A stretch of 62,514 nt of DNA, taken from Lutibacter sp. Its GTDB lineage: Bacteria; Bacteroidota; Bacteroidia; Flavobacteriales; Flavobacteriaceae. The stretch is from the NCBI GenBank assembly GCA_030694935.1, contig JAUYUA010000055.1, positions 1 to 62,514 on the forward strand. The letters are read 5' to 3'. Positions 22,435-56,216 of the stretch are shown piece by piece. The notes below the pieces were generated by a model. The model saw only the letters and a program-made list of their open reading frames with translations. It was not told the origin of the DNA and did not search any database. The position numbers and the translations under genes are program-made. Positions within the stretch are counted from its first letter, which is position 1. Every line of letters begins with the position of its first letter.

Positions 22435-22542
22435 ATGAAACGAGCATAACAAATTTTGATACACGGAGGAATGATTAATAGCGAACCTGCCTGTCCGGCA
22501 GGCAGGCAGCATCGGTACCAATAAAAAATAAAAGATAAACAG
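22435..22542 (+). repeat. 'MKRAITNFD' element, copy 1 (before the S23 gene)
   Basis: 108 bases. Starts ATGAAACGAGC, continues ATAACAAATTTTGATACAC, then AATGATTAATAGCGAA, a 21-base palindrome (22486-22506, arms CCTGCCTG/CAGGCAGG), and ends CATCGGTACCAATAAAAAAT...AAACAG directly at the ATG of the S23 gene. One base is missing compared with other copies (GAGCATAAC versus GAGCCATAAC), which closes the small frame after four codons. Confidence 0.8.
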
Positions 22543-22902
22543 ATGAAAGAGGTTATAAAGGAAAAGACACAAAAGTTTGCGATTGCTTGTTGGAGGCTTT
22601 GTGCTAAATATGATAAAGGACGTGAATATGATGCGTTCTGTAGACAATTGATTAGATGTTCAAGTTCAGTGGGTGCTAATTACCGTGCAGCTTGTAGGGC
22701 AAAATCTACAGCCGATTTTATAAATAAATTAAAAATAGTTGAAGAAGAAACTGATGAGGCGATGTATTTCTTGGAAATTTTGAATGAAATAGATAATAAG
22801 CATCAGGATGAAATAAAAATATTATATGCTGAAGCAAACGAATTATTGTCAATTGTGGTGGCATCAATAAAAACATTAAAAAATAGAGAAGATAAGAGAT
22901 AA
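22543..22902 (+). CDS. S23 / four-helix-bundle protein
   Basis: 119 residues, all helical, of the 23S rRNA intervening-sequence protein family (also related in fold to Avd of diversity-generating retroelements). Typical family phrases: FAIACWRLCAKYD, FCRQLIRCSSSVGANYRAACRAKS, FINKLKIVEEETDEAMYFLEIL. In Leptospira the family is encoded in 23S rRNA insertions; free-standing bacterial copies have no established role. It breaks the conserved mraY-murD order, is preceded by a repeat element and flanked by inverted heptamer arrays, which points to insertion as a cassette. Its stop overlaps the murD start (TAATG). Confidence 0.85.
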   Translation: MKEVIKEKTQKFAIACWRLCAKYDKGREYDAFCRQLIRCSSSVGANYRAACRAKSTADFINKLKIVEEETDEAMYFLEILNEIDNKHQDEIKILYAEANELLSIVVASIKTLKNREDKR

Positions 22903-24272
22903 TGGAAGGCAAGGAAAATCGTCAATCGTCAATCGTCAATCGTAAATTAGTTGTTCTTGGAGCTGGCGAAAGCGGCGTTGGAACCGCCATTTTGGGGAAA
23001 CAAAAAGGCTTTGAGGTTTTTGTTTCTGATAAAGGAATCATTGCTGAAAAATATAAAAAAGTTCTTTTAAATAATGACATTTTATTTGAGGATGGAAATC
23101 ATACTGAATCTAAAATATTGGAGGCTGATTTGGTGATGAAAAGTCCTGGAATTCCGGATAAAGTGGCCTTGGTAAAACAATTGAAAAGCAAAGGGATTCC
23201 CGTGATTTCTGAAATTGAGTTTGCTTCAAAATATACAAACGGCGTTATTGTTGGTATCACCGGATCAAACGGAAAAACCACCACAACCATGTTGGTGAAC
23301 CATATTTTGAAGAAGGCAAATTTAAATGTTGGAATGGGAGGAAATATCGGCGAAAGTTTTGCGCAACAGGTGGCTGAAAATAACTACGATATCCACGTGT
23401 TGGAATTGAGCAGTTTTCAGCTGGACGGGATCGTAGATTTTGCGCCGCACATTGCCATCATTACAAATATTTCTCCTGATCATTTGGACAGATACGATTA
23501 CAAGTTTGAAAACTATATCCATTCAAAATTCAGAATTACCGAAAATCAGACCGAAAATGATTTTTTGATTTATGATGCTGATGATAAAGTGATTTTAGAA
23601 TGGTTAAAAAATAACAATACAAAAGCCTGTTTACTGCCTTTTTCAATAGAAAAAGAGTTGGAACAAGGCGTTTTTTTGAAAAACGACAACATCATCATAA
23701 ACTATAAAAAAGAAGATACACTAATGAACATTTCAACTTTAGCCTTAAAAGGAAAACACAATTTAAAAAATGCAATGGCAGCTTCTATGGCAACTTCGTT
23801 GCTTAAAGTTAGAAAAGATACCATTCGTGAGAGTCTGGAAGATTTTGAAGGCGCAGAACACCGATTGGAATTTGTGCTAAAAATTAACGGCGTGCAATAC
23901 ATCAACGATTCGAAAGCAACAAATGTTAACGCAACATTTTATGCATTGGACAGCGTAAAAACGCCAACGGTTTGGATTGTAGGCGGTGTGGATAAAGGAA
24001 ATGATTATTTGGATTTAATGCCTATGGTCAGGGAAAAAGTGAAGGCCATAATTTGTTTGGGATTGGACAATCAAAAGATAATGCAAACTTTTGGCAATGT
24101 GGTTGATTTAATTGTTGAAACTGCAGGAGCTGAAGAAGCGGTAAAAGTGGCTTACAAAATTGCCGAAAAAGGAGATACCGTGTTGTTGTCTCCGGCTTGC
24201 GCAAGTTTTGATTTGTTTGAAAATTACGAAGACAGGGGAAATAAATTTAAAGAAGCCGTTCGAGGATTGTAG
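22902..24272 (+). CDS. murD: UDP-MurNAc-L-alanine:D-glutamate ligase
   Basis: MurD adds D-glutamate to UDP-MurNAc-Ala. The ATP loop is GITGSNGKTTTTMLV, with LELSSFQLDG, NISPDHLDRY and C-terminal INDSKATNVNATFYAL and SPACASFDLFENYEDRG. 456 residues. The first ~13 residues (MEGKENRQSSIVN) are encoded by a 7-bp repeat array and are not family-like; the domain proper starts at KLVVLGAGESG. The true start could be this ATG, coupled to the S23 stop. Confidence 0.94.
   Translation: MEGKENRQSSIVNRKLVVLGAGESGVGTAILGKQKGFEVFVSDKGIIAEKYKKVLLNNDILFEDGNHTESKILEADLVMKSPGIPDKVALVKQLKSKGIPVISEIEFASKYTNGVIVGITGSNGKTTTTMLVNHILKKANLNVGMGGNIGESFAQQVAENNYDIHVLELSSFQLDGIVDFAPHIAIITNISPDHLDRYDYKFENYIHSKFRITENQTENDFLIYDADDKVILEWLKNNNTKACLLPFSIEKELEQGVFLKNDNIIINYKKEDTLMNISTLALKGKHNLKNAMAASMATSLLKVRKDTIRESLEDFEGAEHRLEFVLKINGVQYINDSKATNVNATFYALDSVKTPTVWIVGGVDKGNDYLDLMPMVREKVKAIICLGLDNQKIMQTFGNVVDLIVETAGAEEAVKVAYKIAEKGDTVLLSPACASFDLFENYEDRGNKFKEAVRGL
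22917..22944. repeat. heptamer array AATCGTC x4 inside the murD start
   Basis: AATCGTC, AATCGTC, AATCGTC, AATCGTA in exact register. It is read as codons (R-Q-S-S-I-V-N-R) of murD in the present start choice. Inverted partner of the array at 22385-22419. Confidence 0.75.
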
Positions 24273-24359
24273 ATGAAACGAGCCATAACAAATTTTGATA
24301 CACAGCAGAATGATTAATGGCGACTGCATCTGTACCAATAAAAAATAAATAATAAACAG
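24273..24359 (+). repeat. 'MKRAITNFD' element, copy 2 (tandem, first)
   Basis: 87 bases; its ATG directly follows the murD stop TAG. Small frame MKRAITNFDTQQND, stop TAA. No central palindrome: GGCGAC is joined directly to TGCATCTGTACC. Ends AAATAATAAACAG, then copy 3 begins. Confidence 0.82.
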
Positions 24360-24450
24360 ATGAAACGAGCAATAACAAATTTTGATACACAATAAAATGA
24401 TTAGTGGCGAAATTGCCCGCGGCAAGCAATAAAAATTAAAATAAGAAACA
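24360..24450 (+). repeat. 'MKRAITNFD' element, copy 3 (tandem, second, before ftsW)
   Basis: 91 bases. Small frame MKRAITNFDTQ, stop TAA earlier than in the others. The central slot holds TTGCC-CGC-GGCAA, a palindrome different from copies 1 and 4, and the TGTACC segment is lost. Ends AAGAAACA at the GTG start of ftsW. Confidence 0.78.
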
Positions 24451-25641
24451 GTGAAAAACATTCTTAAAAATATAGAAGGAGATAAAGCGATATGGGCAAT
24501 TGTGACCGTTATGGCAATTTTGTCATTTTTGCCTGTTTACAGCACAAGCACCAATTTGGTTTATGGAACCAATGTAGGCACACCTTTCTATTATTTATTT
24601 AAGCACGTAATTTTGTTATTTCTGGGATTCTTAATTATTTACGGCGTTCATAAAATTCCGTTTAGATATTTTAGCGGCGGCTCGGTATTAATGTTGCCTT
24701 TGGTCATTTTGTTATTAATTTATACCCTTTCACAGGGAACTACTATTGGTGGTTCAAACGCCAGCAGGTGGATTGAAATTCCGTTTATAGGCGTTGGTTT
24801 TCAAACATCTACATTGGCTGTTTTGGTGCTGATGATTTATGTTTCCCGATATTTAGCGCGAAAAAAAGAGAGCGAAATATCTTTCAAAGATAGTGTTTTA
24901 CAGTTATGGCTGCCAATAGCCATTACATTGGCATTAATTTTACCGGCAAATTTTTCAACCACTGCAATCGCTTTTTTAATGATTTTGATGCTCTGTTTTA
25001 TTGGTGGTTATCCAATAAAATATTTATTGGGTGTTGTGGGCGTTGGTGTGGTGTTTTTGGCATTATTTGTATTGACTGCCAAAGCGCTTCCTGGTGTTTT
25101 TCCTAACAGGGTTGACACTTGGATTAGCAGGGTTGAAAATTTTTCAAATCCGAGTGCTGAAGAAGGCTATCAGGTCGAAAAAGCAAAAATTGCCATCGCA
25201 ACTGGCGGTTTGCAGGGCCGAGGTCCGGGAAAAAGCATCCAAAAAAACTTTTTGCCACAATCTTCCTCCGATTTTATTTTCGCCATTATTGTTGAAGAAT
25301 ACGGATTTTTGGGTGCTTTAGGGGTTATTTTGATGTATTTTATTTTGCTGTTTCGCATTGTGATTGCAGCAAAAAAAGCACGAAGTATTTTTGCCACGCT
25401 TATTATTATTGGCGTTGGCTTGCCTATTATTTTTCAAGCACTTATAAATATGGCTGTGGCCGTTAATTTGATGCCGGTGACCGGACAAACATTGCCGTTA
25501 ATAAGCAGTGGTGGAACTTCTATTTGGATGACTTGTTTTGCGATAGGCATCATTTTAAGCGTTACCGCCGAAAAAGAAATAAACCCAGATATCGCCAGTG
25601 AAGATAACCCTTTAACAGTACTACATGAAGCAATCGGTTAA
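24451..25641 (+). CDS. ftsW: septal peptidoglycan polymerase FtsW (SEDS)
   Basis: FtsW polymerises lipid II together with FtsI. Around ten membrane spans. SEDS motifs: [23 protein letters not shown] and [21 protein letters not shown] near the end. 396 residues. GTG start immediately after repeat copy 3. The end overlaps murG by 17 bases. Confidence 0.93.
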
Positions 25642-26722
25642 CATCATATTAAGCGGAGGCGGCACTGGCGGGCATATTTACCCGGCAATCGCTATTGCCA
25701 ATGAATTAAAACTAAGATATCCTGAAGCAAATTTTTTATTTGTTGGCGCAAAGGATAAAATGGAAATGGAGAAAATTCCGGAAGCGGGATATGCTATTAA
25801 AGGATTGTGGATTTCAGGAATTCAACGACAGTTTATATTAAAAAATTTCTCATTTCCTTTTAAATTGGTGAGCAGCTTGTCGACAGCATACAGCATTATC
25901 AAAGAATTTAAACCGGATATAGTAATTGGCACCGGCGGTTTTGCCAGCGGACCAACATTATTTGTTGCAAGCAACCGAAAAATAAAAACATTGATTCAGG
26001 AACAAAATTCCTATCCGGGAATCACCAATAAATTATTGGCGAAAAGGGTCGATAAAATTTGTGTGGCTTATGATGGATTGGAGCGTTTTTTTCCTTCAAA
26101 CAAAATTGTAAAAACAGGAAATCCGGTACGTCAGGATTTGCTTGAAATAGCAGGTAAAGGTGAAGAAGCCAAAAAGTTTTTCAATCTTAACAGCGATAAG
26201 AAAACACTATTAATTCTTGGCGGAAGTTTAGGCGCCAGAGCCATTAATAATTTGATTGAAAAACACATTGATTGGCTGGTTTCCAAAAACTTGCAGGTGA
26301 TATGGCAAACCGGGAAATTGTATTATGAAGAATTTAAAAAATACGACCGTTTAGAAGGCGTTCAAACACACGCTTTTTTGAACAAAATGGATTTAACCTA
26401 TGCCGCTGCCGATTTTATTATAAGTCGTGCCGGTGCCGGTTCAATTTCAGAATTGTGCATTGTTGGGAAACCGGTAATTTTTATTCCTTCGCCAAATGTG
26501 GCTGAAGACCATCAGACTAAAAATGCCTTGGCGGTGGTGAATAGCAATGCGGCTTTAATGTTGAAAGAATCGGAATTGGATAAGTTTCAATCCAATGTAA
26601 TAGCGCTGTTGGAGAACGAAGAATTGCAGCAAACTTTAGGTAAAAACATCAAAAAACTGGCATTGCCAAATGCCACAAAAGACATCGTTGAAGAAATTGT
26701 AAAATTAATAAACAGATCATAA
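25625..26722 (+). CDS. murG: lipid II synthase (GlcNAc transferase)
   Basis: MurG adds GlcNAc to lipid I at the inner face of the membrane. The glycine-rich loop [19 protein letters not shown] (residues 11-29), [10 protein letters not shown] and [12 protein letters not shown], and [10 protein letters not shown] in the UDP-GlcNAc site identify it. 365 residues, GT28 family. Confidence 0.96.
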
Positions 26723-26724
26723 AA

Positions 26725-28071
26725 TTGAATTTAGAGCGCATACATAATGTTTATTTTGTTGGTATCGGAGGCATCGGTATGAGCGCTCTTGCGAATTATT
26801 TTAAAAGCAATGGCAAAAATGTTGCAGGTTACGATCGCGTCTCAACAAAAATTACCGAGTCCCTTCAACACATGGGAATTGCCGTTCATTATGAAGATGC
26901 TGTTGATTTAATTCCTTCTGAATTTAAAAACAGCCAAGAAACCATTGTGGTTTACACGCCTGCAATTCCGAAGAATAATTTGGAATTAAACCATTTGTGG
27001 GAAAATCATTTTACGGTTTTAAAGCGCTCCGAAGTATTGGGCTTAATTACGAAAAGCACTTTTTGTTTGGCAGTTGCCGGCACACACGGAAAAACAACAA
27101 CGTCTACTATTTTAGGACATATTTTAAAAGAAGCCGGGGTAAATGCCACGTCTTTTTTAGGCGGAATTTCAGAAAATTACAAGTCCAATTTAATTTTGGG
27201 CGGTGATGAAATATCAGTAGTGGAAGCGGATGAATTTGACAGATCGTTTTTAAAATTATCGCCAAATATTGCCTGTATCACTTCTATGGATGCCGATCAT
27301 TTGGATATTTATGGAGAAAAGGCTGAACTGGAAAAATCATTTATGGATTTTGCCGATAAAGTATCACAAACATTAATCATAAGAAAAGGATTGCCGTTAA
27401 AAGGCCTGACATATGGCATTGAAGAAAATGCCGATTATGATGCGAAAAATTTAAAAGTTGAAGAAGGCGCTTACATTTTTGATGTGAAAACACCAACAGA
27501 AATTATAGAAAACATAAAGATTAACCTGCCGGGTAAACACAATGTGCTAAATGCGGTGGCGGCTTTGGCAATGGCCAATATTTTTGGGGTTTCACTCCAG
27601 GTCATTGCTGAAGCTTTACTAACTTTTAAGGGAATTGAACGACGATTTTCTTACAAAATTAAAACGGAAAATTTGGTGCTGATTGATGATTATGCACACC
27701 ATCCTACCGAAATTAATGCGGTGGTGGATTCGGTTCGGGAAATGTATCCCACAAAAAAAATAGCGGGAATTTTTCAACCGCATTTATACAGCAGAACAAG
27801 AGATTTTATAGATGATTTTGCAGCTAGTTTATCGCGCTTTGATGCGTTGATTTTGTTGGATATTTATCCGGCAAGGGAATTGCCTGTTGAAGGGGTGACA
27901 TCGGCTTGGTTGTTGGATAAAATCACTATTGAAGAAAAACAGATTTCTTCAAAAAAGAATTTGGTAAAAAATGTATTAAGCCTTGATTCACAAGTGATTG
28001 TAATGATTGGTGCAGGTGATATTGGTGAGCAGGTTGAAGTAATTAAAAATGCACTGAACCATGAAAATTAA
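26725..28071 (+). CDS. murC: UDP-MurNAc:L-alanine ligase
   Basis: First Mur ligase. N-terminal GIGGIGMSALANYF, ATP loop VAGTHGKTTTSTIL, VEADEFDRSFL, and DDYAHHPTEINAV in the C-terminal domain. 448 residues. TTG start two bases after murG; the next ATG would remove the nucleotide motif. Overlaps ftsQ by 11 bases. Confidence 0.95.
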   Translation: MNLERIHNVYFVGIGGIGMSALANYFKSNGKNVAGYDRVSTKITESLQHMGIAVHYEDAVDLIPSEFKNSQETIVVYTPAIPKNNLELNHLWENHFTVLKRSEVLGLITKSTFCLAVAGTHGKTTTSTILGHILKEAGVNATSFLGGISENYKSNLILGGDEISVVEADEFDRSFLKLSPNIACITSMDADHLDIYGEKAELEKSFMDFADKVSQTLIIRKGLPLKGLTYGIEENADYDAKNLKVEEGAYIFDVKTPTEIIENIKINLPGKHNVLNAVAALAMANIFGVSLQVIAEALLTFKGIERRFSYKIKTENLVLIDDYAHHPTEINAVVDSVREMYPTKKIAGIFQPHLYSRTRDFIDDFAASLSRFDALILLDIYPARELPVEGVTSAWLLDKITIEEKQISSKKNLVKNVLSLDSQVIVMIGAGDIGEQVEVIKNALNHEN

Positions 28072-28801
28072 TTGGAATTACGTCATTGGCGTTTTATTGG
28101 TTTCGTTGGTGATATTTTTATATGTTTTTTCAAACATCAAAAACAGCGCTCAAAAAGTAGCCGATATTTCCATAGAATTTGAGCAGGGAGACAACCTTTA
28201 TATGGACTACCAAATGGTTAATAAATTGTTAATACAAAATGGCGGAAGTGCTAAGAATCTAACTAAATCTGTTATAGATTTACATAATTTGGAAGCAAAT
28301 GTGCGATCACACCCCATGGTAGAAAGCGTATCGGTTTATTTAACGGTTGACGGTTTTCTCAAAACTAAAATTAAACAGCGTACCCCAATAGCGAGAGTGG
28401 TGGATAATAATGAAAGTTATTATATTGACAGACAGGCAAAAATCATGCCTTTGTCCGACAATTTTTCAGCGAGGGTTTTGCTTATTTCAGGTGACGTAAA
28501 GGAGGAGAATAATGATGAAATTCATGAATTGGTAACCGCAATTTTAAATGATGAATTTTTAAAAGAACAGATAATTGCAATAGAAAAAACAACAAAAAAC
28601 GAATATGTTTTGGACACAAGGGTAGGTGATCAGAAAATAATTTTAGGGAAAATTGAGAATTTGGATCAGAAATTTAAAAATCTGGGCGCATTTTATATAA
28701 AAACAATGGCCGACAGTACAATTTATAAGTATGATTCAATTAATTTAAAATACAACAAGCAAGTTGTAGCCACTAATAAAGCAGATTATGGAAAACGATG
28801 A
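28061..28801 (+). CDS. ftsQ: cell division protein FtsQ
   Basis: 246 residues: a short cytoplasmic tail, one membrane span at about residues 7-24 (VIGVLLVSLVIFLYVFS), a POTRA-like region and the beta domain with TPIARVVDNNESYYIDRQAKIMPL. Bacteroidetes FtsQ is poorly conserved; the place between murC and ftsA supports it. Overlaps ftsA by 14 bases. Confidence 0.88.
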   Translation: MKINWNYVIGVLLVSLVIFLYVFSNIKNSAQKVADISIEFEQGDNLYMDYQMVNKLLIQNGGSAKNLTKSVIDLHNLEANVRSHPMVESVSVYLTVDGFLKTKIKQRTPIARVVDNNESYYIDRQAKIMPLSDNFSARVLLISGDVKEENNDEIHELVTAILNDEFLKEQIIAIEKTTKNEYVLDTRVGDQKIILGKIENLDQKFKNLGAFYIKTMADSTIYKYDSINLKYNKQVVATNKADYGKR

Positions 28802-30128
28802 TATTTCGGTAGGATTGGATATAGGAACAACCAAAATTGTTGCTATGATTGGTCGCAGAAATGAGTATGGGAAAATTGAGTTGTTAGGGATTGGCAGAGC
28901 CAAAAGTTTAGGCGTTCACCGTGGTGTGGTCAATAATATTACACAAACAATACAGTCAATTCAAAAGGCTGTGGATGAAGCAATTGCGGTGTCTGGGATT
29001 CAAATTACTGAAACTGTTGTGGGCATTGCCGGGCAACATATCAGAAGTTTGCAACACAGCGATTATATCACAAGGCCAAATTCTGAAGAAGTGATTAGCG
29101 AGGAGGATTTGGAAAAATTGGAAAAACAGGTTTATAAATTGGTGATGCTTCCGGGTGAAGAAATTATACATGTGCTTCCGCAGGAATTTAAAGTAGATGG
29201 ACAAGGAGAAATTACGCAGCCGGTTGGAATGTATGGAGGCAGACTTGAAGCCAACTTTCATGTGGTTGTTGGACAAATTTCTTCCATCAGAAATGTTGGA
29301 AGATGCATTAAAAGTGCGGGATTAAATTTAGCAGGAATTACCTTAGAACCTTTGGCATCGGCAGAAGCCGTTTTAAGTGCCGAGGAAAAGGAAGCCGGAG
29401 TGGCATTGATTGACATAGGAGGCGGAACTACTGATTTGGCGATTTTTAAAAACGGAATTATTCGTCATACTGCCGTAATTCCTTTTGGGGGAAACGTAAT
29501 TACCGAAGACATAAAAGAAGGCTGTTCCATTATTGAAAAACAGGCTGAATTGCTGAAGGTAAAATTTGGATCGGCTTGGCCAGGCGACAATAAGGACAAT
29601 GAAATTGTTTCAATTCCGGGTTTACGAGGCAGAGACCCTAAAGAAATTACCCTTAAAAATCTGTCTAAAATTATCAATGCAAGGGTTATTGAAATTATTG
29701 AACAAGTGTTCCTGGAGATTAAAAACTACGGACATGAAGAGTCAAAGAAAAAATTAATTGCCGGAATCGTTTTAACAGGAGGCGGCGCAGAGTTAAAACA
29801 CATCAAACAACTGGTTGAATATGTAACCGGAATGGATACCAGAATTGGCTATCCAAATGAAAATTTAGCGGGAGATTCAGATGAAAGTTTGTCGAGCCCA
29901 CAATATGCAACGGCAGTCGGGCTTTTGATGAACGGTTTAAATAAAATTGAAAAAGCGAAAAAAGCCAAAATGGCCCAACATCATTTTCAGGAAAAACCAA
30001 AAACCGAAGAAGCCAAAGAAGAAGTTAAAAAAGAGACAATTATCGCAGAAGAATTCAAAGAACCTAAAAAATCCATATTTGAAAAATGGGGAGATAAATT
30101 TAGGGACTTTTTAGACAATGCCGAGTAA
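28788..30128 (+). CDS. ftsA: cell division protein FtsA
   Basis: Actin-like membrane anchor for FtsZ. VGLDIGTTKIVAMIGR (phosphate 1), DIGGGTTDLAIFKNG (phosphate 2) and GIVLTGGGAELKHI (adenosine) are all present. 446 residues, with a Lys/Glu-rich linker and a C-terminal helix SIFEKWGDKFRDFLDN, the amphipathic membrane-targeting helix. Confidence 0.96.
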   Translation: MENDDISVGLDIGTTKIVAMIGRRNEYGKIELLGIGRAKSLGVHRGVVNNITQTIQSIQKAVDEAIAVSGIQITETVVGIAGQHIRSLQHSDYITRPNSEEVISEEDLEKLEKQVYKLVMLPGEEIIHVLPQEFKVDGQGEITQPVGMYGGRLEANFHVVVGQISSIRNVGRCIKSAGLNLAGITLEPLASAEAVLSAEEKEAGVALIDIGGGTTDLAIFKNGIIRHTAVIPFGGNVITEDIKEGCSIIEKQAELLKVKFGSAWPGDNKDNEIVSIPGLRGRDPKEITLKNLSKIINARVIEIIEQVFLEIKNYGHEESKKKLIAGIVLTGGGAELKHIKQLVEYVTGMDTRIGYPNENLAGDSDESLSSPQYATAVGLLMNGLNKIEKAKKAKMAQHHFQEKPKTEEAKEEVKKETIIAEEFKEPKKSIFEKWGDKFRDFLDNAE

Positions 30129-30170
30129 TTAAAAAAATATAATCATAGAATAATCCAATAAATATATATT

Positions 30171-32084: not shown

Positions 32085-32129
32085 AATGTAGCCCAAAGAC
32101 AAAAAACTTAGATTATTTACTAAGTTTTT

Positions 32130-32178
32130 AACTCGAAAATCTTCTTGTAATAATGAGGATTTTCGAGTTCTTTTTTTT
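32130..32178 (+). terminator. intrinsic terminator after ftsZ
   Basis: A 12-bp stem AACTCGAAAATC (32130-32141) / GATTTTCGAGTT (32158-32169) followed by C and eight T. It closes the division cluster. The next promoter starts at its last T. Confidence 0.85.
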
Positions 32179-32185
32179 TATCTTT
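32178..32185 (+). promoter_or_regulatory. promoter -7 box TATCTTTG
   Basis: Exact TAnnTTTG directly after the ftsZ terminator, 22 bases before the GatB/Yqey ATG at 32207. Confidence 0.6.
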
Positions 32186-32206
32186 GCCCAATAAAATGAA
32201 ACGATT

Positions 32207-32656
32207 ATGAGTTTACAAGAAAAGATCATGGATAAGATGAAAGAGGCGATGAAAACCAAAGACAAAGTTGCTTTAGAATCGTTAAGAGCCATTAAATCGG
32301 AATTGTTATTGATCCAAACAAAAAGTGCCGCTTCGTCAGCATTGACTGAAGATGATGAAATAAAACTGCTTCAAAAATTGGTAAAACAAAGAAAGGACAG
32401 CGCCGCAATTTATAAAGAACAAGGAAGAAATGATTTGGCCGAGCCTGAATTGGCGCAAGTTGAAGTGATCTCCCAGTTTTTACCGGTGCAAATGAGTGAA
32501 GAGGAAGTGAAAAATGCCGTGGCTGAAATTATAAAATCAGTGGGCGCCACTTCCATGAAAGATATGGGAAATGTGATGGCGGAAGCTTCAAAACAACTGG
32601 CAGGCAAAACCGACGGAAAATCAATTTCCACCGCAGTAAAACAATTATTGGGATAA
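32207..32656 (+). CDS. GatB/Yqey domain protein
   Basis: 149 residues, matching the whole of the Yqey-type tail domain of GatB: KEAMKTKDKVALESLRAIKSELL at the N-terminus and LLQKLVKQRKDSAAIYKEQGR, ISQFLPVQMSEEEV and MGNVMAEASKQLAGKTDGKSIS. The family is thought to bind tRNA; function of the stand-alone form is not settled. A tRNA-Arg region follows. Confidence 0.92.
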   Translation: MSLQEKIMDKMKEAMKTKDKVALESLRAIKSELLLIQTKSAASSALTEDDEIKLLQKLVKQRKDSAAIYKEQGRNDLAEPELAQVEVISQFLPVQMSEEEVKNAVAEIIKSVGATSMKDMGNVMAEASKQLAGKTDGKSISTAVKQLLG

Positions 32657-32662
32657 AATAAA

Positions 32663-32750: not shown

Positions 32751-32773
32751 ACTTAATATAAAAAAAGAATAAT

Positions 32774-32847: not shown

Positions 32848-32862
32848 CGAATAAATCAACAA

Positions 32863-32916
32863 AAAGTTGAAAACAAAGCAAGCTAAAAATAAAAGCTTGC
32901 TTTTGTTTTTTAGGTT
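32863..32916 (+). terminator. terminator after tRNA-Arg
   Basis: AAAACAAAGCAAGCT (32871-32885) pairs with AGCTTGCTTTTGTTTT (32894-32909) with one bulge and is followed by a T-run. The descending arm is also the start of the 97-bp tandem repeat. Confidence 0.6.
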
Positions 32917-37520: not shown

Positions 37521-37862
37521 GTAGTAGCGAATAATTTTTTAGTTAATATATAAGGTCTATAGTATTATACGTTGGATTCTTAAAAATGTTACAAAATAAA
37601 TCACAAACAATTTTATTTGTTTCAAAAACAACGCAATTTATAGCAATATTTTGGGCGTTTCCCGCCAACTGGCGGGCCAAGCTTTTCGTTCCAATCTTTA
37701 TTTCTTTGCCAAAAAGGCAAAGAAATAAAGTATTTCCACTTCAATCTTTAACGCGGCTTGATTTACAATCTGAGATTTAAAATTTTGAATGTTTAATTTT
37801 TAACTTTCAATTATTGGCAATAAAAAACTTATATTTGATTTTTAAAAATTGCATAAAAGAAA
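37521..37862. other. 342-base gap without genes
   Basis: It holds the upstream region of rpoD (first ~130 bases), the palindromic element at 37651-37757 and an AT-rich stretch before the glycosyltransferase gene. I see no frame with protein-like composition. Confidence 0.6.
37651..37757. repeat. dispersed element with two palindromes
   Basis: Begins TTGGGCGTTT and ends ATTTCCACTTCAATCTTTAACGCGGC, phrases I know from widespread intergenic elements of Bacteroidetes. Two perfect inverted repeats: CCCGCCA-AC-TGGCGGG (37661-37676) and a 15-bp-arm hairpin CTTTATTTCTTTGCC / GGCAAAGAAATAAAG (37696-37730). Confidence 0.7.
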
Positions 37863-46384: not shown

Positions 46385-46473
46385 ATGAAACACTTTATAC
46401 AAAATATTTTGACATTTAGAAGTATGAATATCAGCATTCCGTTGTACCTTTCAAAATCAATAAAAACAATCAG

Positions 46474-46580
46474 ATGAAACGAGCCATAACAAATTTTGAT
46501 ATACATGAGAATGATTAATGGCGACCTGCCTGCCGGCAGGCAGGCTGCATCTGTACCAATAAAAAATAAAATATAATCAG
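46474..46580 (+). repeat. 'MKRAITNFD' element, copy 4 (before mrdA)
   Basis: 107 bases. Small frame MKRAITNFDIHEND, stop TAA. Central palindrome CCTGCCTGCCGGCAGGCAGG (46525-46544), then CTGCATCTGTACCAATAAAA and the end at the mrdA ATG. AATCAGATGAAACG occurs exactly at both ends (46468-46481 and 46575-46588). The 89 bases between mreD and this copy hold a very degenerate similar stretch (ATGAAACACTTTATACAAAA). Confidence 0.82.
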
Positions 46581-48416: not shown

Positions 48417-48426
48417 TCCATAAAAG

Positions 48427-49704
48427 TTGAGAAGCAGAAAAGACAATATATTTCTTGGAATTGATTGGATCTTGGTCTTATTTTATTTCGTTTTCATCTT
48501 TTTAGGGTGGATTAATATCTATGCGGCAACCATTAGTGAAAATCAGTTCGATTTACTAAATTTTACAACCGAGTATGGAAAACAACTTATTTGGATAGGG
48601 TTTAGTATTCCAATAATCTTACTTATTTTAATGTTTGAGGCCAAATTTTACGAAAAATACGCAGTTATTATTTATGTGAGTTTTCTGGCATTGCTTGCAG
48701 GACTTTTTGTTTTTGGCAAAAACATAAATGGATCGACCTCATGGTACGCTATAGGAAATTTCAGCCTTCAGCCATCAGAATTTGCAAAAGCCGCAACAGC
48801 ATTGGCAATTGCCAAATTGGTGAGTGATAAAATGTTTAACTTAAAGAAGTTGAGCACGCAAATGCAGGCATTGTTGCTCTTGTTTTTCCCTGCAATTCTA
48901 ATAATTTTACAACCCGATCCCGGTTCGGCATTGGTTTATGGCGCTTTTATTTTTGTATTGTATAGAGAAGGATTGCCATTTTATTACATAACAGTAGGCT
49001 TTATCGCCTTATTTCTTTTTGTGATTACCCTAATTTTAGGCTACCAAGTAACACTCATAAGTTCGCTGGTATTGTTTATTTGTATCCTTCTGTATTTTAT
49101 TTTCTACAGACCAAGGGCTTTTAGAAAAGGATGGATTAAAATAATTGGGATATATCTAATGTCGGCTTTGTTTATTTTTAGTGTCGATTTGGTTTTTAAC
49201 CATGTGTTTAAACAACATCACCGAGATCGATTTAACATCATCCTTGGCAAAACTGTAGATATGAAAGGTGTTGGTTATAACACCAGGCAATCGGTTACCA
49301 CAATTGCTTCAGGAGGTTTTTTTGGCAAAGGATTTTTAGAAGGGGAACGAACACAAGGGAATTTTGTGCCAGCGCAAACAACGGATTATATATTTACGAC
49401 TGTTGGTGAAGAATGGGGATTTGTGGGCAGCGCGTTTGTCATTCTATTATTTATGGCTTTTTTACTTAGAATTATCAATAGGGCAGAACAGCAAAAAGCC
49501 AAATTCAGCCGAATTTATGGGTACAGCATTGTTGCCATATTTTTTATGCATTTTGTTATCAATATAGGAATGGTTATAGGATTGGTTCCGACTATTGGCA
49601 TCCCATTGCCGTTTTTTAGCTATGGAGGATCGGCGCTTTGGGGATTTACAGTGCTGCTTTTTATCTTTATCAGACTCGATGCCAACAAAACGTATGAGTG
49701 GTAG
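48427..49704 (+). CDS. rodA: elongation glycan polymerase RodA (SEDS)
   Basis: 425 residues, about ten spans. SEDS motifs: FSLQPSEFAKAATALAIAKLV, QPDPGSALVY, QTTDYIFTTVGEEWGFVG, and GLVPTIGIPLPFFSYGGSALW. TTG start 10 bases after mrdA; there is no ATG that keeps the first span. Confidence 0.94.
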   Translation: MRSRKDNIFLGIDWILVLFYFVFIFLGWINIYAATISENQFDLLNFTTEYGKQLIWIGFSIPIILLILMFEAKFYEKYAVIIYVSFLALLAGLFVFGKNINGSTSWYAIGNFSLQPSEFAKAATALAIAKLVSDKMFNLKKLSTQMQALLLLFFPAILIILQPDPGSALVYGAFIFVLYREGLPFYYITVGFIALFLFVITLILGYQVTLISSLVLFICILLYFIFYRPRAFRKGWIKIIGIYLMSALFIFSVDLVFNHVFKQHHRDRFNIILGKTVDMKGVGYNTRQSVTTIASGGFFGKGFLEGERTQGNFVPAQTTDYIFTTVGEEWGFVGSAFVILLFMAFLLRIINRAEQQKAKFSRIYGYSIVAIFFMHFVINIGMVIGLVPTIGIPLPFFSYGGSALWGFTVLLFIFIRLDANKTYEW

Positions 49705-49735
49705 GAATTTCTATCAAAATTGAAATTATCCAAAA

Positions 49736-49772
49736 TAAAAAAGCATCCAGAATATGGATGCTTTTTTATTTT
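49736..49772. terminator. bidirectional terminator between rodA and rpsT
   Basis: AAAAAAGCATCC-AGAATAT-GGATGCTTTTTT with A-run and T-run on either side; serves the convergent rodA (+) and rpsT (-). Confidence 0.88.
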
Positions 49773-49786
49773 GTAGTTTAAAAATT

Positions 49787-50038
49787 TTATAATGCAGCAA
49801 CGTGCTTAGCCAATTTAGATTTTAAGTTACCCGCTTTATTTTTGTGGATAACATTCTTTTTAGCTAATTTATCTAGCATTGATACTACTTTTGGAAATAA
49901 CGCTACAGCTTCTTCCTTTTCGGTCGCAGCACGTAAGTTTCTAACAGCATTACGAGTTGTTTTATGCTGATATTTATTTCTTAATTGCTTGGCGCGATTG
50001 CTTCTGATTCTCTTTAATGCTGACTTGTGATTTGCCAT
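49787..50038 (-). CDS. rpsT: 30S ribosomal protein S20
   Basis: 83 residues, [24 protein letters not shown] at the start and helical Lys-rich remainder. It lies 23 bases downstream of tRNA-Glu on the same strand and probably shares its transcript. Confidence 0.96.
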
Positions 50039-50061
50039 TTTTATTTTTTTTAACTTTTTTG

Positions 50062-50133
50062 TAGTCCGTAGGGGAATCGAACCCCTGTTACCAGGATGAA
50101 AACCTGGCGTCCTAACCCCTAGACGAACGGACC
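50062..50133 (-). tRNA. tRNA-Glu (anticodon TTC)
   Basis: 72 bases on the minus strand: acceptor GGTCCGT/ACGGACT, anticodon stem CCAGG/CCTGG with loop TTTTCAT (anticodon TTC), T stem AGGGG/CCCCT with TTCGATT loop. Discriminator A; CCA not encoded. Confidence 0.95.
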
Positions 50134-50175
50134 ATTATGTATTTATTAACAAACGTTATTTTGTCAATGCGGATG

Positions 50176-50204
50176 CAAAAATACAACTATTTTCTACACC
50201 ACAA
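50176..50204 (-). promoter_or_regulatory. promoter TTG-N18-TATTTTTG for tRNA-Glu and rpsT
   Basis: On the minus strand -33 TTG at 50202-50204 and an exact -7 box at 50176-50183, about 43 bases before the tRNA 5' end. Confidence 0.6.
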
Positions 50205-50221
50205 AATATTTTTTAAAAAAA

Positions 50222-51700
50222 TTAGTAAGCTTTTGCAAATAATACTCTTTGAGTCGACTTTTCCCCAGTAAATACGCACTTTCCTTCTTCAATTTTATTA
50301 TTTAAAGGGATGCATCTTATCGTTGCTTTTGTTAAATCTTTAATTTTTTCTTCCGTTTCAGGAGTGCCATCCCAATGCGCTGAAATAAATCCGCCCTTAG
50401 TTTCCAACACTTCTTTAAATTCTTCCAATGAATTGACTTCGGTGATATGTGTTTCTCTGTAATTTAGCGCTTTTTGATATAAATTATCTTGAATTTCTTT
50501 TAGTGTTTTTTCAACGTATTCAACAACAGTGTCTTGGGAAATGTTTTGTTTTTCAAGCGTGTCTCTGCGCGCAATTTCCAAAGTGCCATTTTCTAAATCA
50601 TTTGGGCCCATGGCAATTCTTAAAGGCACACCTTTAAGTTCGTATTCAGCAAATTTCCAGCCTGGTTTGTAGGCAGTTCGGTCGTCGTATTTTACGGAAA
50701 TTCCCTTTTTACGCAATTCGGCAACAATTTCATTAATTTTGACTGAAATGGCGTCTAATTGCTCATCGGTCTTATGAATTGGAATAATTACGACTTGAAT
50801 CGGCGCAAGATTTGGAGGCAATACCAAACCTAAGTCATCGGAATGCGTCATAATTAAAGCGCCTATCAATCGTGTGGAAACACCCCAGGAAGTTGCCCAA
50901 ACGTATTCTTGTTTTCCTTCTTTTGAAGTAAATTTCACATCAAATGCTTTTGCGAAATTTTGGCCTAAAAAGTGAGAAGTTCCTGCTTGCAATGCTTTTC
51001 CGTCTTGCATGAGTCCTTCAATGCAATAGGTTTCCAAGGCGCCGGCAAATCGTTCACTTTCGGTTTTTAAACCTTTTATCACGGGCATTGCCATAAAATT
51101 TTCGGCAAAATTGCCATAAACATCTAAAATCAATTCCGCTTCTTTTATCGCTTCCGTTTCTAAAGCATGCGCAGTATGGCCTTCTTGCCATAAAAATTCT
51201 GCAGTACGCAAAAATAAACGGGTACGCATTTCCCAGCGCACCACATTCGCCCATTGATTGATCAATAGCGGTAAATCACGGTACGACTGAATCCATCCTT
51301 TATAAGTACTCCAAATAATGGCCTCACTTGTAGGTCGCACAATCAATTCTTCTTCCAGTTTGGCATTTGGGTCAACCATCAATTTCCCTGGCTTGTCCGG
51401 ATCGTTTTTTAATCGATAATGTGTCACAACGGCACATTCTTTGGCAAACCCTTCCGCATTCTTCTCTTCAGCTTCAAACATACTTCTAGGGACAAAAAGG
51501 GGGAAGTAGGCGTTTTCGTGTCCAGTTTCCTTAAACATTCTGTCCAATTCTGCTTGCATTTTTTCCCAAATTGCATAGCCGTAAGGTTTGATGACCATGC
51601 AGCCTCTAACGCCCGAGTTTTCTGCTAAATTTGCCTTAACCACAAGTTCATTATACCACTTGGAATAGTCGGTTTCTCTCTTTGTTAAATTCTTGCTCAT
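50222..51700 (-). CDS. proS: prolyl-tRNA synthetase, eukaryote/archaeal-like short type
   Basis: 492 residues. Class II motifs in order: motif 1 [17 protein letters not shown], motif 2 [24 protein letters not shown], motif 3 [16 protein letters not shown]. There is no editing insertion between motifs 2 and 3, which marks the type without the INS domain, plus a C-terminal zinc-like domain ending in AKAY, as in archaeal and eukaryotic ProRS. Start taken as ATG 51700; a TTG at 51706 is less likely. Confidence 0.95.
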
Positions 51701-51805
51701 ATTCAAAAGTTTGGCATAAATATTGCGCCTATTTTAATGAAAATTATTAATTTGGACAAAATTAGTTTTTTTTAAATAGTTCAACAATAAAAACCACAAC
51801 TGATT

Positions 51806-52999
51806 ATGAAAACTTCAATAATAATTAACCGAAAAAACTTACAAATTGGCATTGTATTGGTGTTAATTTTCAGTTTTAATTCTTGTGGCACTTATCAAAG
51901 TGCTTACAATGGTGACGATGACGGCATCTATGCTTCAAATAATCAAACCAGAAATGAAGTGGTAATTGTTGAAAATCAATCTAATTTTGATCAAAATTAT
52001 TTTTCAAAACAGCTGGAAGATCTACAAAATTTAAAACAAGAAGATACTTTTACGGATATTGACGGTTATTATTATGATGACAATGCCGTTCAAGATGATC
52101 AATTATACACAAACTACAATGAGCCTTGGGGTTATGATGGCGATGTTGTAATTAACATTAACAGCGGTTATGGCTATATGAGCCCTAGTTATTATTGGTA
52201 CAACCCATTTTACGAACCTTATTACAATTATTATCCATATTATTACAATCCTTGGAGATTCAACTATTACAATCCATATTATTCTTATGGATACAGCCCT
52301 TACTATTATGGCAATTTCTACAATCCATATTATTCTAATTATTATAACAATTATCCTAACTATTATGACAGATATGAAAGTTATGGAAAAAGAACAAGCC
52401 GAAATACAGGAATTAGGTCTGATAATAATGCGAATTTATCAAATATAAGCAGAAGAAGCAGTACAATAAACAATTCGGCAAGAGGAAATGTCAATACTTC
52501 CAGCAGAAGATCTACCGATGGCAATTTAAACAGAAGCAACAATAACTACAGAAACAATACGATTGACAGACAACCAACAAGATTAAATAATACCATTCAA
52601 AGAGGTTCAAATAATAATACAATACAAAGATCTTCATCAACCAGGAGAAATTCATCATATAATTTTTCGCCGGTCAATGTGAACAGAGCAACATCGGTAA
52701 ATCCAAACCAAAATTCAATAATTAGGGTGAATCCTAATTATTCCGGAAATCAAAATTCCGGCGCCACTCAAAATAACGTAAGAAGAGAAAACACTGCAAA
52801 TAACGTTAGGGCCGAAAATTACACCAATACAGTTAGACGAGAATCTAATACAAATACAAATAATAATTCCTCTAACACAAGAAGTTCCGGAAATGAAAAT
52901 TCTTCTGTAAACAGAAGCTCAAATTCTGAAAGCAGAAGCAGTTCGTCGCAATCATCTTCTTCAAGTTCATCAACAAGAAGCAATTCAAGAAGAGATTAA
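51806..52999 (+). CDS. Tyr/Asn-rich lipoprotein, unknown
   Basis: 397 residues. Lipoprotein signal peptide (IGIVLVLIFSFNSC, lipid Cys at 27). An acidic segment follows, then a block at about 110-190 with many Y, N and P (PYYNYYPYYYNPW, NPYYSYGYSPYYYG) and a Ser/Asn/Arg-rich low-complexity tail. No enzymatic motif. Probably surface-exposed or periplasmic; the tail looks disordered. Its neighbour is a FadL-type porin 33 bases downstream. Confidence 0.75.
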   Translation: MKTSIIINRKNLQIGIVLVLIFSFNSCGTYQSAYNGDDDGIYASNNQTRNEVVIVENQSNFDQNYFSKQLEDLQNLKQEDTFTDIDGYYYDDNAVQDDQLYTNYNEPWGYDGDVVININSGYGYMSPSYYWYNPFYEPYYNYYPYYYNPWRFNYYNPYYSYGYSPYYYGNFYNPYYSNYYNNYPNYYDRYESYGKRTSRNTGIRSDNNANLSNISRRSSTINNSARGNVNTSSRRSTDGNLNRSNNNYRNNTIDRQPTRLNNTIQRGSNNNTIQRSSSTRRNSSYNFSPVNVNRATSVNPNQNSIIRVNPNYSGNQNSGATQNNVRRENTANNVRAENYTNTVRRESNTNTNNNSSNTRSSGNENSSVNRSSNSESRSSSSQSSSSSSSTRSNSRRD

Positions 53000-53032
53000 T
53001 AAAACATTTAGGTTTAAACAATTCGAATAAAT

Positions 53033-54391
53033 ATGAAAAAATTATATATAGCGGCAACATTATTGTGCTTTGGTTATATTTTGAACGCACAAACATTAGG
53101 GTATAATGATTTGGGAGCATTGTTTTCTAAAGAAAATATTAACGGTACCGCACGTTATAATGCAATGAGTGGCGCTTTTGGCGCTTTGGGCGGCGATTTG
53201 TCGGCTATGGAAATAAATCCAGCAGGTGCAGCCGTGTTTTTGAAAAGTGAATTCGCCATTTCATTAAACAACAGAAATACCAAGACAATAGCTGGTTTTT
53301 ATGGTAATAATACCCAATTTGAAAATGATTTCACTAATTTGTCGCAAGTTGGAGGTGTTTTTGTGTTTAGAGGTTATGGAAATAGCTCGGCATGGAGCAA
53401 CATTGCCTTAGGATTTAACTACAGCATTGCCAACGATTTTGAAAATTTATGGATTGCTGAAGGAAATAGCGGTTATTCTACTTTTACAAAAGGATATTAT
53501 GATATTAAGAATAATATTGAAAATGCCCCAGATATTTATACCAATACTGACGGACAATATTTTGAAAATTTTATGGATGGAAAAAACGGTAAATATTCGT
53601 TTACGTTTGCCGCACAGCACAATGATAATTTATATCTTGGTGCTGCAATAAACACCTATGATATTGAGTACTATCAACGTACATTATTAGAAGAATATAA
53701 TTACGATAACAATGAAAATAACTTAGATGCTTCATTACTCCAAGAATTGCATACTTACGGGAATGGAGTTTCTTTTAATTTTGGTGCAATTTTAAAACCT
53801 AATGAAAGCATACGCTTAGGTTTGGCTTACCAATCTCCAGTTTGGTATAATCTAGCTGAAAAGTACGTAGACGAGGATTTGATTTTAACCTACTCAGATG
53901 GAAATAAATTTATTTCATATTTTGATGGTATAAATGATTACAAATTGCGTACACCAAGTAAATTAACAGCAAGTTTTGCCTATATTTTTAGTGGAAACGG
54001 ACTTGTAAGTGTTGATTACAGTTTAAAAAATTACAGCAACGTTAAATTGAGCAATGCCGATTTTATTTCTGAAAACCAAGCGTTTAAGTCCAATATGGAA
54101 AATGTGGGTGAGTTGCGAATTGGAACAGAATGGCGATTTGATAATTTCTCGGTAAGAGGTGGTTATCACTATGAAAACAGCCCGTATAAAAGTTCGGTGA
54201 GTTCTGATAATTTAGAAGGATTCTCATTGGGTGCAGGCTATAAATTTAGAGGTGGAAAATTTGATTTAGCCTACCAAAAATCAGGCAATACCGCCCCTTA
54301 TAATTTTTATCCAGAATACAATAATATTGATGCTGCTGAGTTAGATTTTGACACATCAACCTTTACGGCAACATTGGTGTTGAATCTTTAA
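53033..54391 (+). CDS. OmpP1/FadL-family outer membrane transporter
   Basis: 452 residues with signal peptide (MKKLYIAATLLCFGYILNAQ). The mature N-terminus has NGTARYNAMSGAFGALGGDLSAMEINPAG, the FadL/TodX hatch signature with the NPA-like turn, followed by alternating beta strands up to a terminal aromatic-hydrophobic strand (TFTATLVLNL). Takes up hydrophobic molecules. Confidence 0.9.
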   Translation: MKKLYIAATLLCFGYILNAQTLGYNDLGALFSKENINGTARYNAMSGAFGALGGDLSAMEINPAGAAVFLKSEFAISLNNRNTKTIAGFYGNNTQFENDFTNLSQVGGVFVFRGYGNSSAWSNIALGFNYSIANDFENLWIAEGNSGYSTFTKGYYDIKNNIENAPDIYTNTDGQYFENFMDGKNGKYSFTFAAQHNDNLYLGAAINTYDIEYYQRTLLEEYNYDNNENNLDASLLQELHTYGNGVSFNFGAILKPNESIRLGLAYQSPVWYNLAEKYVDEDLILTYSDGNKFISYFDGINDYKLRTPSKLTASFAYIFSGNGLVSVDYSLKNYSNVKLSNADFISENQAFKSNMENVGELRIGTEWRFDNFSVRGGYHYENSPYKSSVSSDNLEGFSLGAGYKFRGGKFDLAYQKSGNTAPYNFYPEYNNIDAAELDFDTSTFTATLVLNL

Positions 54392-54411
54392 ACAACGAAT
54401 TATAACACAAT

Positions 54412-54441
54412 AAAAACGTCTCAGCCATGAGGCGTTTTTTT
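54412..54441 (+). terminator. terminator after the FadL-type gene
   Basis: AAAAACGTCTCA-GCCA-TGAGGCGTTTTTTT with one G-U pair, followed by T-run. Confidence 0.82.
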
Positions 54442-54473
54442 ATTTTTAACCATTACATGAATTATGTTTTATG

Positions 54474-54481
54474 TATTTTTG
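54474..54481 (+). promoter_or_regulatory. promoter -7 box TATTTTTG for the nifU-ubiE unit
   Basis: Exact TAnnTTTG, 16 bases before the ATG at 54498. Confidence 0.6.
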
Positions 54482-54497
54482 CACAAACTAAAAAAAG

Positions 54498-55388
54498 ATG
54501 AAAAACAGCACTCTTAAAATAGAAAAAACAAACATACCAACGATACTAAAATTTACCTCAAACAACATTTTAGCAAGCGGAAGCCATCAATTCAACAATA
54601 TTGATGAAGCAAAAAATTCGCCTTTGGCGCAGCAATTATTTTATTTGCCATTTGTGAAACGCGTATATATTTCTGCAAATTTTATTGCACTTGAACGATT
54701 TGCGATTGTGGAATGGATTGATGTGCAAGACGAAGTGAAAGAGGAAATTGAAAACTACCTGAACGCAGGTGGTGTTATTGTTACAGAAGAATCTGCACCA
54801 AAAAAAATTCCGGTGGAAGTGTATGCAGAATCAACGCCAAATCCTTCAGTAATGAAGTTTGTTGCCAACATAAAATTGGTGGAAAACGATTTGGAATTTA
54901 AAAACAGTGAAGCAGCTGAAAATGCCCCTTTGGCAACAGAATTATTTAATTTTCCTTTTGTAAAAGAAATATTTATTTCAGAAAATTATGTGTCAGTCAC
55001 AAAAAATAACAATGTTGAGTGGCCTGAAATAACCGTTGAATTAAGAAGCTTTGTCAGACAGTATATTGCAGACGGAAAAACAATTGCTTTGGCTACCGCA
55101 GTTCAACAAAAAGTTTCAGAAGTTTATAACCATGATATTGAATTGGATGATGTATCCAAACAAATTATAGACATTTTAGAGGAATATATAAAGCCTGCTG
55201 TTGCTGCCGATGGCGGAAATATCATGTTTCAGTCTTATTCACCATCTTCAAAAATAGTTAACGTCATATTGCAAGGTGCTTGCAGCGGTTGTCCTTCTTC
55301 AACAATTACCCTGAAAAACGGAATTGAGAATATGTTGAAACAACTTATTCCAGGGAAAATTAACGAAGTTGTAGCGGTTAACCAATAA
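54498..55388 (+). CDS. NifU-family Fe-S scaffold with two Nfu N domains
   Basis: 296 residues: a Nfu N-type domain at about 8-85, a second at 108-190 (both share the pattern [19 protein letters not shown] / [19 protein letters not shown]), then the C-terminal NifU domain with the cluster cysteines C262 and C265 in [10 protein letters not shown]. Delivers Fe-S clusters to target proteins. Stop is five bases from the ubiE start. Confidence 0.9.
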
Positions 55389-55392
55389 ATTG

Positions 55393-56124
55393 ATGATGGC
55401 AGAAAAAGTTACACCTTACAAAGATTCAGATCTTAGCAAAAAAGAACAAGTCACTAAAATGTTTGATGCCATTTCCAATGAATACGACAGTTTAAACCGT
55501 GTTATTTCTTTTGGAATTGATGTAAAATGGCGCAATAAAGTAGTTGACATTGTTAGAAAAACAAATCCGGATTCCATTTTAGACATTGCCACCGGAACAG
55601 GTGATTTGGCTATCAATTTAGCCAAAACAAAGGCTTCAAAAATTGTTGGTTTGGATATTTCTGACGGAATGCTTGAAGTTGGCCGTAAAAAAATTGAAAA
55701 TCTTCATTTAAACAACACCATTGAAATGGTACTTGCCGATTCTGAAAATATGCCTTTTGATGACAATTCATTTGATGCTATAACTGTTGCTTTTGGTGTT
55801 CGTAATTTTGAAAATCTTGAAAAAGGATTGACTGAAATTTACCGAGTTTTAAAAACGGGTGGCATATTTGTGGTTTTGGAAACGTCCATTCCAACCAAAA
55901 CACCTTTCAAACAAGGATATCAGTTTTATGCCAAAAACATGCTGCCTTTAATCGGAAAATTGTTTTCAAAAGACAAAGTTGCCTATCAATATTTGTCGGA
56001 TTCCGCAGCTTCATTTCCTTACGGACAGGCATTCAACAATATTTTGCATAAAATTGGGTTTATAGGTATAGAAAATAAACCGCAAACATTTGGTGTTGCT
56101 TCAATTTATATTGCAAAAAAATAA
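55393..56124 (+). CDS. ubiE: demethylmenaquinone methyltransferase
   Basis: 243 residues. SAM motif [15 protein letters not shown], signature [21 protein letters not shown] and [21 protein letters not shown]. Last step of menaquinone synthesis. ATGs at 55393 and 55396 both possible. Followed by repeat copy 5 and porT. Confidence 0.94.
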
Positions 56125-56127
56125 TAT

Positions 56128-56216
56128 ATGAAACGAGCCATAACAAATTTTGATAAAAACAGAAATATTTAATGGCGAACAGCATCTGTACCAATAAAAA
56201 AATAAAATTTAAACAG
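56128..56216 (+). repeat. 'MKRAITNFD' element, copy 5 (before porT)
   Basis: 89 bases, three bases after the ubiE stop. Small frame MKRAITNFDKNRNI, stop TAA in the same place as copies 2 and 4 in spite of changed codons. No central palindrome. Ends CATCTGTACCAATAAAAAAA...AAACAG at the porT ATG. Confidence 0.82.

Follow-up and report, generated by a model that had tools for sequence, protein, structure and literature searches.

Dispersed repeats that end at ATGAAA start codons probably represent a miniature, possibly guide-targeted mobile element of Bacteroidia

Why does a repeat of about 90 bp end precisely at the start codon of several unrelated genes? The question is raised by a 62,514-nucleotide stretch of Lutibacter sp. 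DNA (the window; contig JAUYUA010000055.1, positions 1 to 62,514, GenBank assembly GCA_030694935.1) that belongs to a 3.22-Mb draft genome of the Lutibacter clade, here labeled G000; G and L numbers denote genomes and loci throughout. The original prediction described five copies of a mobile or duplicating element that carries its own translation start region. We find that the repeats probably represent a miniature noncoding mobile element of Bacteroidia, which may be targeted by a guide and moved by an HUH-type enzyme.

All five copies were confirmed by alignment; they lie on the + strand, each abutting the start codon named for it. Copy 1 (22435 to 22542, 108 bp with a palindromic insert, 125.7 bits) ends at the ATGAAA of an S23 gene (PF05635, 22543 to 22902). 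Copy 2 (24273 to 24359), an 87-bp core form, starts right after the murD stop codon and ends at the ATGAAA (24360) of copy 3. Copy 3 (24360 to 24450, 91 bp, 73.5 bits) is diverged, has no CATCTG arm, and ends at the GTGAAA of ftsW (24451). Copy 4 (46474 to 46580, 107 bp, again with a palindromic insert) ends at the ATGAAA of mrdA (46581), and copy 5 (56128 to 56216, an 89-bp core form) ends at the ATGAAA of porT (56217). A CCTGCC..GGCAGG palindrome extends copies 1 and 4 internally, so the core unit in the window is 87 to 89 bp long. At porT, the target word ATGAAA (56217 to 56222, + strand) makes up codons 1 and 2, and the left end of the element is the identical word. A 27-mer from the left end occurred at 4 places in the window with 0 mismatches (0.00 expected from 100 shuffles), copy 1 being missed because of a single-base deletion. 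An 18-mer from the right end also had 4 places (3 exact, 1 with 2 mismatches); this count is not significant (mean of 0.84 by chance at 3 mismatches), and the significance is therefore carried by the left end.

The syntenic sites of relatives, which the original prediction had proposed to compare, came in filled and empty versions at ftsW, porT, mrdA, and the S23 gene. Filled sites gain one exact unit in front of ATGAAA and read ATGAAA-element-ATGAAA. The murD-ftsW junction was empty in 8 of 12 relatives, where the murD stop codon sits directly at the ftsW start or overlaps it, and the unit was present in 4 of 12. At porT, 9 of 11 relatives were empty and 2 were filled, and the 96 bases before the site are identical between the window and the empty relative G005. 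The mrdA site was filled in 1 of 11 relatives, and the S23 gene of G001 is without an element. Additional single filled/empty pairs were found beyond these four genes; the broader orthologous-site test mislabeled many self-matches, and only single pairs were taken from it.

Counting copies in the genome and its relatives revealed a dispersed family. A pattern search of the window's own genome found 51 places. Model R1, which held only 6 base pairs, gave 90 matches there at an E value of ≤10 and 86 at ≤0.01; these 86 are spread over 71 places, of which 58 have a single copy, 11 a double, and 2 a triple. A second model, R2, was built on three helices set by hand, and its matches lean toward that fold. 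Five relatives were rich in copies at an E value of ≤0.01: G001 had 132, G004 had 79, G005 had 54, G009 had 102, and G002 had at least 150, a lower bound in that all 150 scored candidates matched. Seven other Lutibacter genomes had 0, 0, 1, 3, 1, 3, and 5 matches (G003, one of the two with none, is 86% complete), and a further genome of the genus, G067, had at least 5 copies. Among eight genomes outside the genus, two had 14 and 2 matches and six had none. Named records with the left end were mostly Lutibacter metagenome assemblies, among the matches listed. The element was absent from viral contigs in an exact pattern search, and a blastn search with 178 bases gave no phage or plasmid match.

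The family extends across the class. Matches were found in 28 of 199 Flavobacteriaceae genomes at an E value of ≤1e-6 and in 32 of 395 Bacteroidia genomes at ≤1e-5, the latter belonging to 25 of 197 genera and to 19 families as counted from their labels; these scans scored 18 and 10 candidates per genome, and the copy counts are lower bounds. The core is about 87 to 95 nt long across Bacteroidia. Among 60 copies examined from 21 Flavobacteriaceae genomes, the right flank was ATGAA in 59 and an open reading frame (ORF) of at least 60 codons followed 52; the 28 loci read class-wide gave ATGAA in all 28 and such an ORF in 23. The 52 downstream proteins of the Flavobacteriaceae sample matched 88 Pfam families, none of which occurred in more than 2 proteins. 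Since the downstream genes are unrelated, they point to a mobile element and not to a regulon, and a larger duplicated gene family, named beforehand as a competing explanation, was not borne out. Taken together, the filled and empty sites, the dispersed copies, and the unrelated downstream genes support the idea of a mobile or duplicating element. No Rfam covariance model matched it in the window or in further sets of 7 and 20 loci, and we found no description of the element, its target rule, or its anti-start hairpin in the literature searched.

What fixes the position of the element? The right flank was ATGAA in 305 of 310 copies (26 of 336 matches had no usable right end), and the sixth base was A in 296 of those 305; the model includes the ATGAA columns, which slightly favors copies with that flank. 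The last four bases of the element were ACAG in 285 of the 310 copies, so the base at −3 is C and not the A that had been claimed. When 12 sites adjoining another element were removed from 187 and orthologous sites were then merged, 128 separate sites were left: 97 at gene starts, 21 intergenic, and 10 in the interior of genes, where the 31 that are not gene starts by the criteria used consist of the 21 intergenic sites and 10 in frames above the length cutoff. Before the gene-start criteria were relaxed and orthologous sites were merged, 118 of 188 were at starts. The precise placement at start codons and the sense orientation to the next gene hold in most cases, and random orientation and distance were not what was seen.

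Background ATGAA words in about 0.9 Mb of the loci numbered 365 at gene starts, 382 intergenic, and 2,851 interior; for start versus intergenic positions, the odds ratio of sites against words was 4.8 (p = 4e-12). The sixth base was A at all 21 intergenic sites, versus 167 of 382 background words, and at 89 of 94 gene-start sites, versus 249 of 365. Beyond the ATGAAA hexamer, the enrichment at gene starts was about threefold by a hand calculation from these site and word counts. It is thus the target word ATGAAA, identical to the element's own left end, that primarily accounts for where the element sits. The bases upstream showed little signal except for a G at −1 (0.40 versus 0.17; 147 sites versus 203 words), and part of this excess may stem from unrecognized neighboring elements. 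Target site duplication by an ordinary transposase is not favored, since most copies keep ATGAAACGAGC or ATGAAATGAGC at the left end regardless of the right flank (GTGAA at L052, ATGAT at L047), with the caveat that a duplicated ATGAA is indistinguishable from an inherited one in a single copy. Among deviating left ends, ATAAA was found in 12 of 298 copies, and GTGAA, TTGAA, and ACGAA also occur.

The element is predicted to fold into two hairpins, the second of which takes in the target word. In copy 2, the predicted first hairpin (24282 to 24321, + strand) contains helices A and B, in which GCCAT (24282 to 24286) pairs with ATGGC (24317 to 24321) and ATTTTG (24292 to 24297) pairs with CAGAAT (24306 to 24311). 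In the second hairpin (24327 to 24362, + strand), helix C joins an anti-start arm, CATCTG (24327 to 24332), to CAG+ATG (24357 to 24362), the ATG lying in the target word. Accordingly written for most copies, the 3′ hairpin pairs CAU-N-UG with CA-N′-AUG, where AUG is the start codon of the target. RNAalifold found no structure in 171 core copies, after which stems were placed manually and their pairs counted. In 48 copies, 88.9% of the cells of the three helices were paired, compared with at most 42.1% when the helices were slid, and there were 44 two-sided changes, compared with 16.5 ± 3.0 in shuffles. The first hairpin shows compensatory changes in distant copies. In helix C, 94% of the cells were paired in core copies, and 100 of 116 junctions formed all six pairs, where the arm had been chosen as the best-pairing candidate near the junction, which favors pairing, and 18 of 134 entries had been dropped for want of a usable junction or arm (these 18 may include duplicates from two hit tables). 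The N/N′ position was C/G in 54, G/C in 38, A/T in 8, T/A in 2, and other combinations in 9 of 111 cases, that is, Watson-Crick in 102 of 111, and the copy at L397 changes two helix C pairs together, CATACG with CGTATG.

The RNA fold z score was −4.5 for the core and −2.8 and −4.9 for two longer forms; as DNA, the core scored −2.1 on the top strand and −1.1 on the bottom strand. G-U cells numbered 70 (86 in shuffles) and A-C cells 12 (36 in shuffles). Because A-C cells are depleted more than G-U cells and the DNA fold is stronger on the top strand, these figures suggest that the fold lies in the sense strand, an indicative result in that related sequences are not independent.

These observations can be joined in one mechanism. 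The element is gained as one exact unit before ATGAAA, as seen in the filled and empty sites, and mobility with this target word is very likely. The CAU arm would act as a guide, recognizing the target word in single-stranded DNA by pairing with it; we put the chance that the pairing is used for targeting at about even. An HUH-type (TnpA/TnpA-REP-like) enzyme would move the element in trans, cutting at ATGAAA on both sides, a step that we rate as somewhat less likely than not. HUH anatomy would be matched by the fixed target word, which equals one of the element's ends, by the internal hairpins, and by guide-target pairing, which is the rule described for the ends of IS200/IS605 elements (PMC6006769). 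A gene hit in this way would stay readable, since the element stops immediately ahead of the start codon and brings an A-rich leader with it, and insertions inside genes would mostly be removed by selection. A broader version, in which a class-wide, self-guided family pairs its internal anti-start (CAU) with the target AUG, gives the gene a new leader with the start codon in a hairpin, and so rewires translation, is more tentative still.

Among the Lutibacter genomes, all 6 that are rich in copies have Y1 transposase genes, as does 1 of the 6 poor ones, whose gene has an internal stop; in the window's own genome there are six Y1 matches, several of them next to palindromic repeats. Against the mechanism stand the following results. 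None of the Y1 loci examined, which cover part of the Y1 matches of the wider sample, was framed by the element, and the only one with a copy (L052) carries it at a GTG start, like any other gene. No Y1 orthologue group was common to all six rich genomes (3 of 25 loci had no readable protein). In the wider sample, Y1 genes were found in 10 of 17 element carriers and in 6 of 13 other genomes, and G090, with at least 6 copies, has no Y1 gene. Partial matches away from locus ends yielded no long autonomous version. Within the fold, pairs with a two-sided change numbered 5 (4.9 in shuffles) and further pair types 14 (16.7 in shuffles), neither exceeding the shuffles; the anti-start arm was CAG instead of CAT in 51 of 170 Lutibacter core copies, and five copies carry TTCGGGAT in its place. 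The hairpin could also be kept for translation rather than for movement, and the preference for start codons beyond the hexamer may be due to selection alone. With no Y1 orthologue in common, no examined Y1 gene framed by the element, and a weaker link in the wider sample, the HUH assignment rests on anatomy.

Two observations on these loci stand apart. Y1/RAYT genes with adjacent palindromic repeats of their own lie at L048, L049, L051, L052, and L053. At L050 (G000:C7), a Y1_Tnp match falls inside a 702-codon open frame with palindromes within it; judged by its sequence, this frame looks like a restriction-modification or methylase gene.

Does the element alter expression of the gene behind it? 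The element takes the place of the leader that adjoins the start codon. On the suggestion of the original prediction that it may tune expression, the evidence consists of fold predictions. Over 112 gene-start sites, the predicted openness of the region from −20 to +6 rises from 0.52 to 0.69 with the element and that of the AUG itself falls from 0.38 to 0.28; the fold predictions point both ways, and the direction of any effect on expression cannot be told from them. In Flavobacterium johnsoniae, structure near the start and an A at −3 matter, according to a published study (PMC6847099).

These predictions bear on another account, that the repeats are conserved cis-regulatory RNA leaders for translational control, in which a factor or a change of temperature frees the start codon from a hairpin that has an A-rich loop, and in which useful copies are spread or kept. 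The conserved fold does include the start codon, apparently on the sense strand, the AUG is predicted to become less open, and most copies family-wide and class-wide (52 of 60 and 23 of 28) precede ORFs of at least 60 codons. Yet the region around the AUG as a whole becomes more open and not more closed, the downstream genes have no function in common, the copy number ranges from 0 to 5 up to more than 100 between species of one genus, and some copies form arrays or lie at ATGAAA words between genes; we regard this account as unlikely. The sense-strand fold, with A-C pairs depleted and G-U pairs tolerated, and the enrichment of start codons among ATGAA words would also be expected if the element spread through RNA, either by inserting at AUGAAA in mRNA or because a reverse transcriptase copies it from RNA; the sense orientation and the start preference would then both follow. 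The target word alone already yields the sense orientation, however, and 21 of the 128 sites are intergenic, possibly untranscribed words away from start codons, which leaves this route quite improbable.

A known REP/REPIN moved as usual by a resident RAYT gene would be in line with the REP-like palindrome inside many copies and with the six Y1 matches in the genome, several of them beside palindromic repeats. The palindrome is a separate repeat, though, which also occurs outside the element and is missing from core copies; the consensus has no GTAG at the hairpin foot, and the RAYT genes that were read are flanked by other repeats. We consider this explanation distinctly unlikely. Finally, the position of many copies at contig ends or within arrays, together with repeated ATGAAA words that could recombine, might suggest that gene leaders were duplicated in tandem or recombined, or that the draft assemblies are at fault. 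The filled/empty pairs already contradict this: the same sites are filled or empty in independent assemblies, and the sequence flanking a filled site runs on just as it does where the element is missing, with the 96 identical bases at porT. Copies were also found in genomes of one to three contigs (G143, G145, and G100), and duplication or artefact is therefore hardly credible. The guide-targeted mobile element remains our preferred explanation.

Tandem arrays are expected of such an element if its own left end also serves as a target. After duplicates were removed, all loci together gave 123 single, 43 double, 11 triple, and 2 quadruple arrangements among 179 places, 17 places near locus ends having been dropped; with duplicates from overlapping loci included, the numbers were 171, 59, 16, and 2 of 248. 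The CCTGCC..GGCAGG palindrome also occurs outside the element and is missing from core copies. The palindrome CCTGCCGGCAGG as the mobile core was rejected, given 46 pattern matches outside elements in the loci examined and its absence from core copies. A leader peptide read from the left ATG was likewise rejected, the frame not being kept: of 287 full copies, 138 have the stop at codon 14, 54 have it at codon 4, and 53 at a later codon. In G004 and G009, murD has an extended 5′ end that contains palindromes of the CCCCTTCGGGGG type, and a close form of the palindrome was seen in G002 (L108, L109, and L112). A second element family (ATGAAACGCC...AGCAA) forms recurring composites with the first, with ATAAA at the joint (L162, L197, L213, L200, and L249).

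The window has further features. An element-like insert of 89 bp (ATGAAACAC...AATCAG; 46385 to 46473, + strand) sits between mreD and copy 4 and, from its sequence, is probably an older, decayed relative of the element. It was present in G000, G001, G004, G005, and G009 and absent from G002, G006, G007, G008, G010, and G011; G012 has a different, longer spacer, and among the loci examined the insert matched at mrdA loci only. The S23 gene (23S rRNA intervening sequence protein, 22543 to 22902) sits between mraY and murD; it was found at this position also in G001 and not in the other relatives read. As a carrier of the element it was rejected and looks like a target only, the S23 gene of G001 having no element. 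An Rfam Flavo-1 RNA (RF01705, 55.9 bits) lies at 37671 to 37762 on the − strand, upstream of a sigma-70 factor gene, and the element models did not match this place.

The usual view is that mobile elements insert more or less blindly and are filtered by selection afterwards. Because the target word here (ATG AAA) is a common gene beginning in these bacteria, the element can insert at positions of least harm and can replace the leaders of essential genes such as ftsW and mrdA. Filled and empty versions of the same gene in sister species are natural pairs that make start codon choice without a Shine-Dalgarno sequence in Bacteroidia directly testable. The family also points to the existence of a mobilizing enzyme. 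If true, the self-guided reading would make the start codon itself the target rule of a mobile element.

How does the element compare with known systems? Nonautonomous derivatives of IS200/IS605 (PATEs) resemble it in having no terminal inverted repeats and no variable target duplication, in a fixed short word beside the insertion that also forms one end of the element, in internal hairpins, and, if the arm serves as a guide, in guide-target pairing. When the PATE layout was tried on the element, insertion beside a fixed short target word without variable duplication was found, the hairpins were supported, and the arm could pair with the target ATG, the neighboring pair showing covariation; the described guide 5′ of the hairpin foot was not reproduced. 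The element differs in its target word, ATGAAA, in a sequence and fold recognizable across a class, in an A-rich loop, and not a hairpin, between the guide arm and the target word, and in that no TnpA gene with its ends was found in the loci examined. REP/REPIN sequences with TnpA-REP (RAYT) are likewise small, reach high copy numbers in some genomes, are mostly intergenic, form hairpins, and are moved in trans if at all, whereas our element has a fixed orientation and a fixed target, mostly start codons, as well as a longer unit, two hairpins, no GTAG foot, and no RAYT gene seen framed by it. Miniature inverted-repeat transposable elements (MITEs) are also small, noncoding, dispersed, and nonautonomous; by inspection, the ends of our element are not inverted repeats, and its flank is nearly always ATGAA(A) (305 of 310). 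HEARO/IscB elements insert 5′ of ATGA or GTGA, and if this rule holds they share a similar target next to start-like words. They differ in that our element has no gene inside it and no HEARO match in the Rfam scans made; a search for the RRXRR domain of IscB found none in 12 genomes, and the control genomes of that search gave none either. Small nonautonomous elements are thus a known kind, to which this family would add, as far as searched, a new target rule and a new anti-start hairpin.

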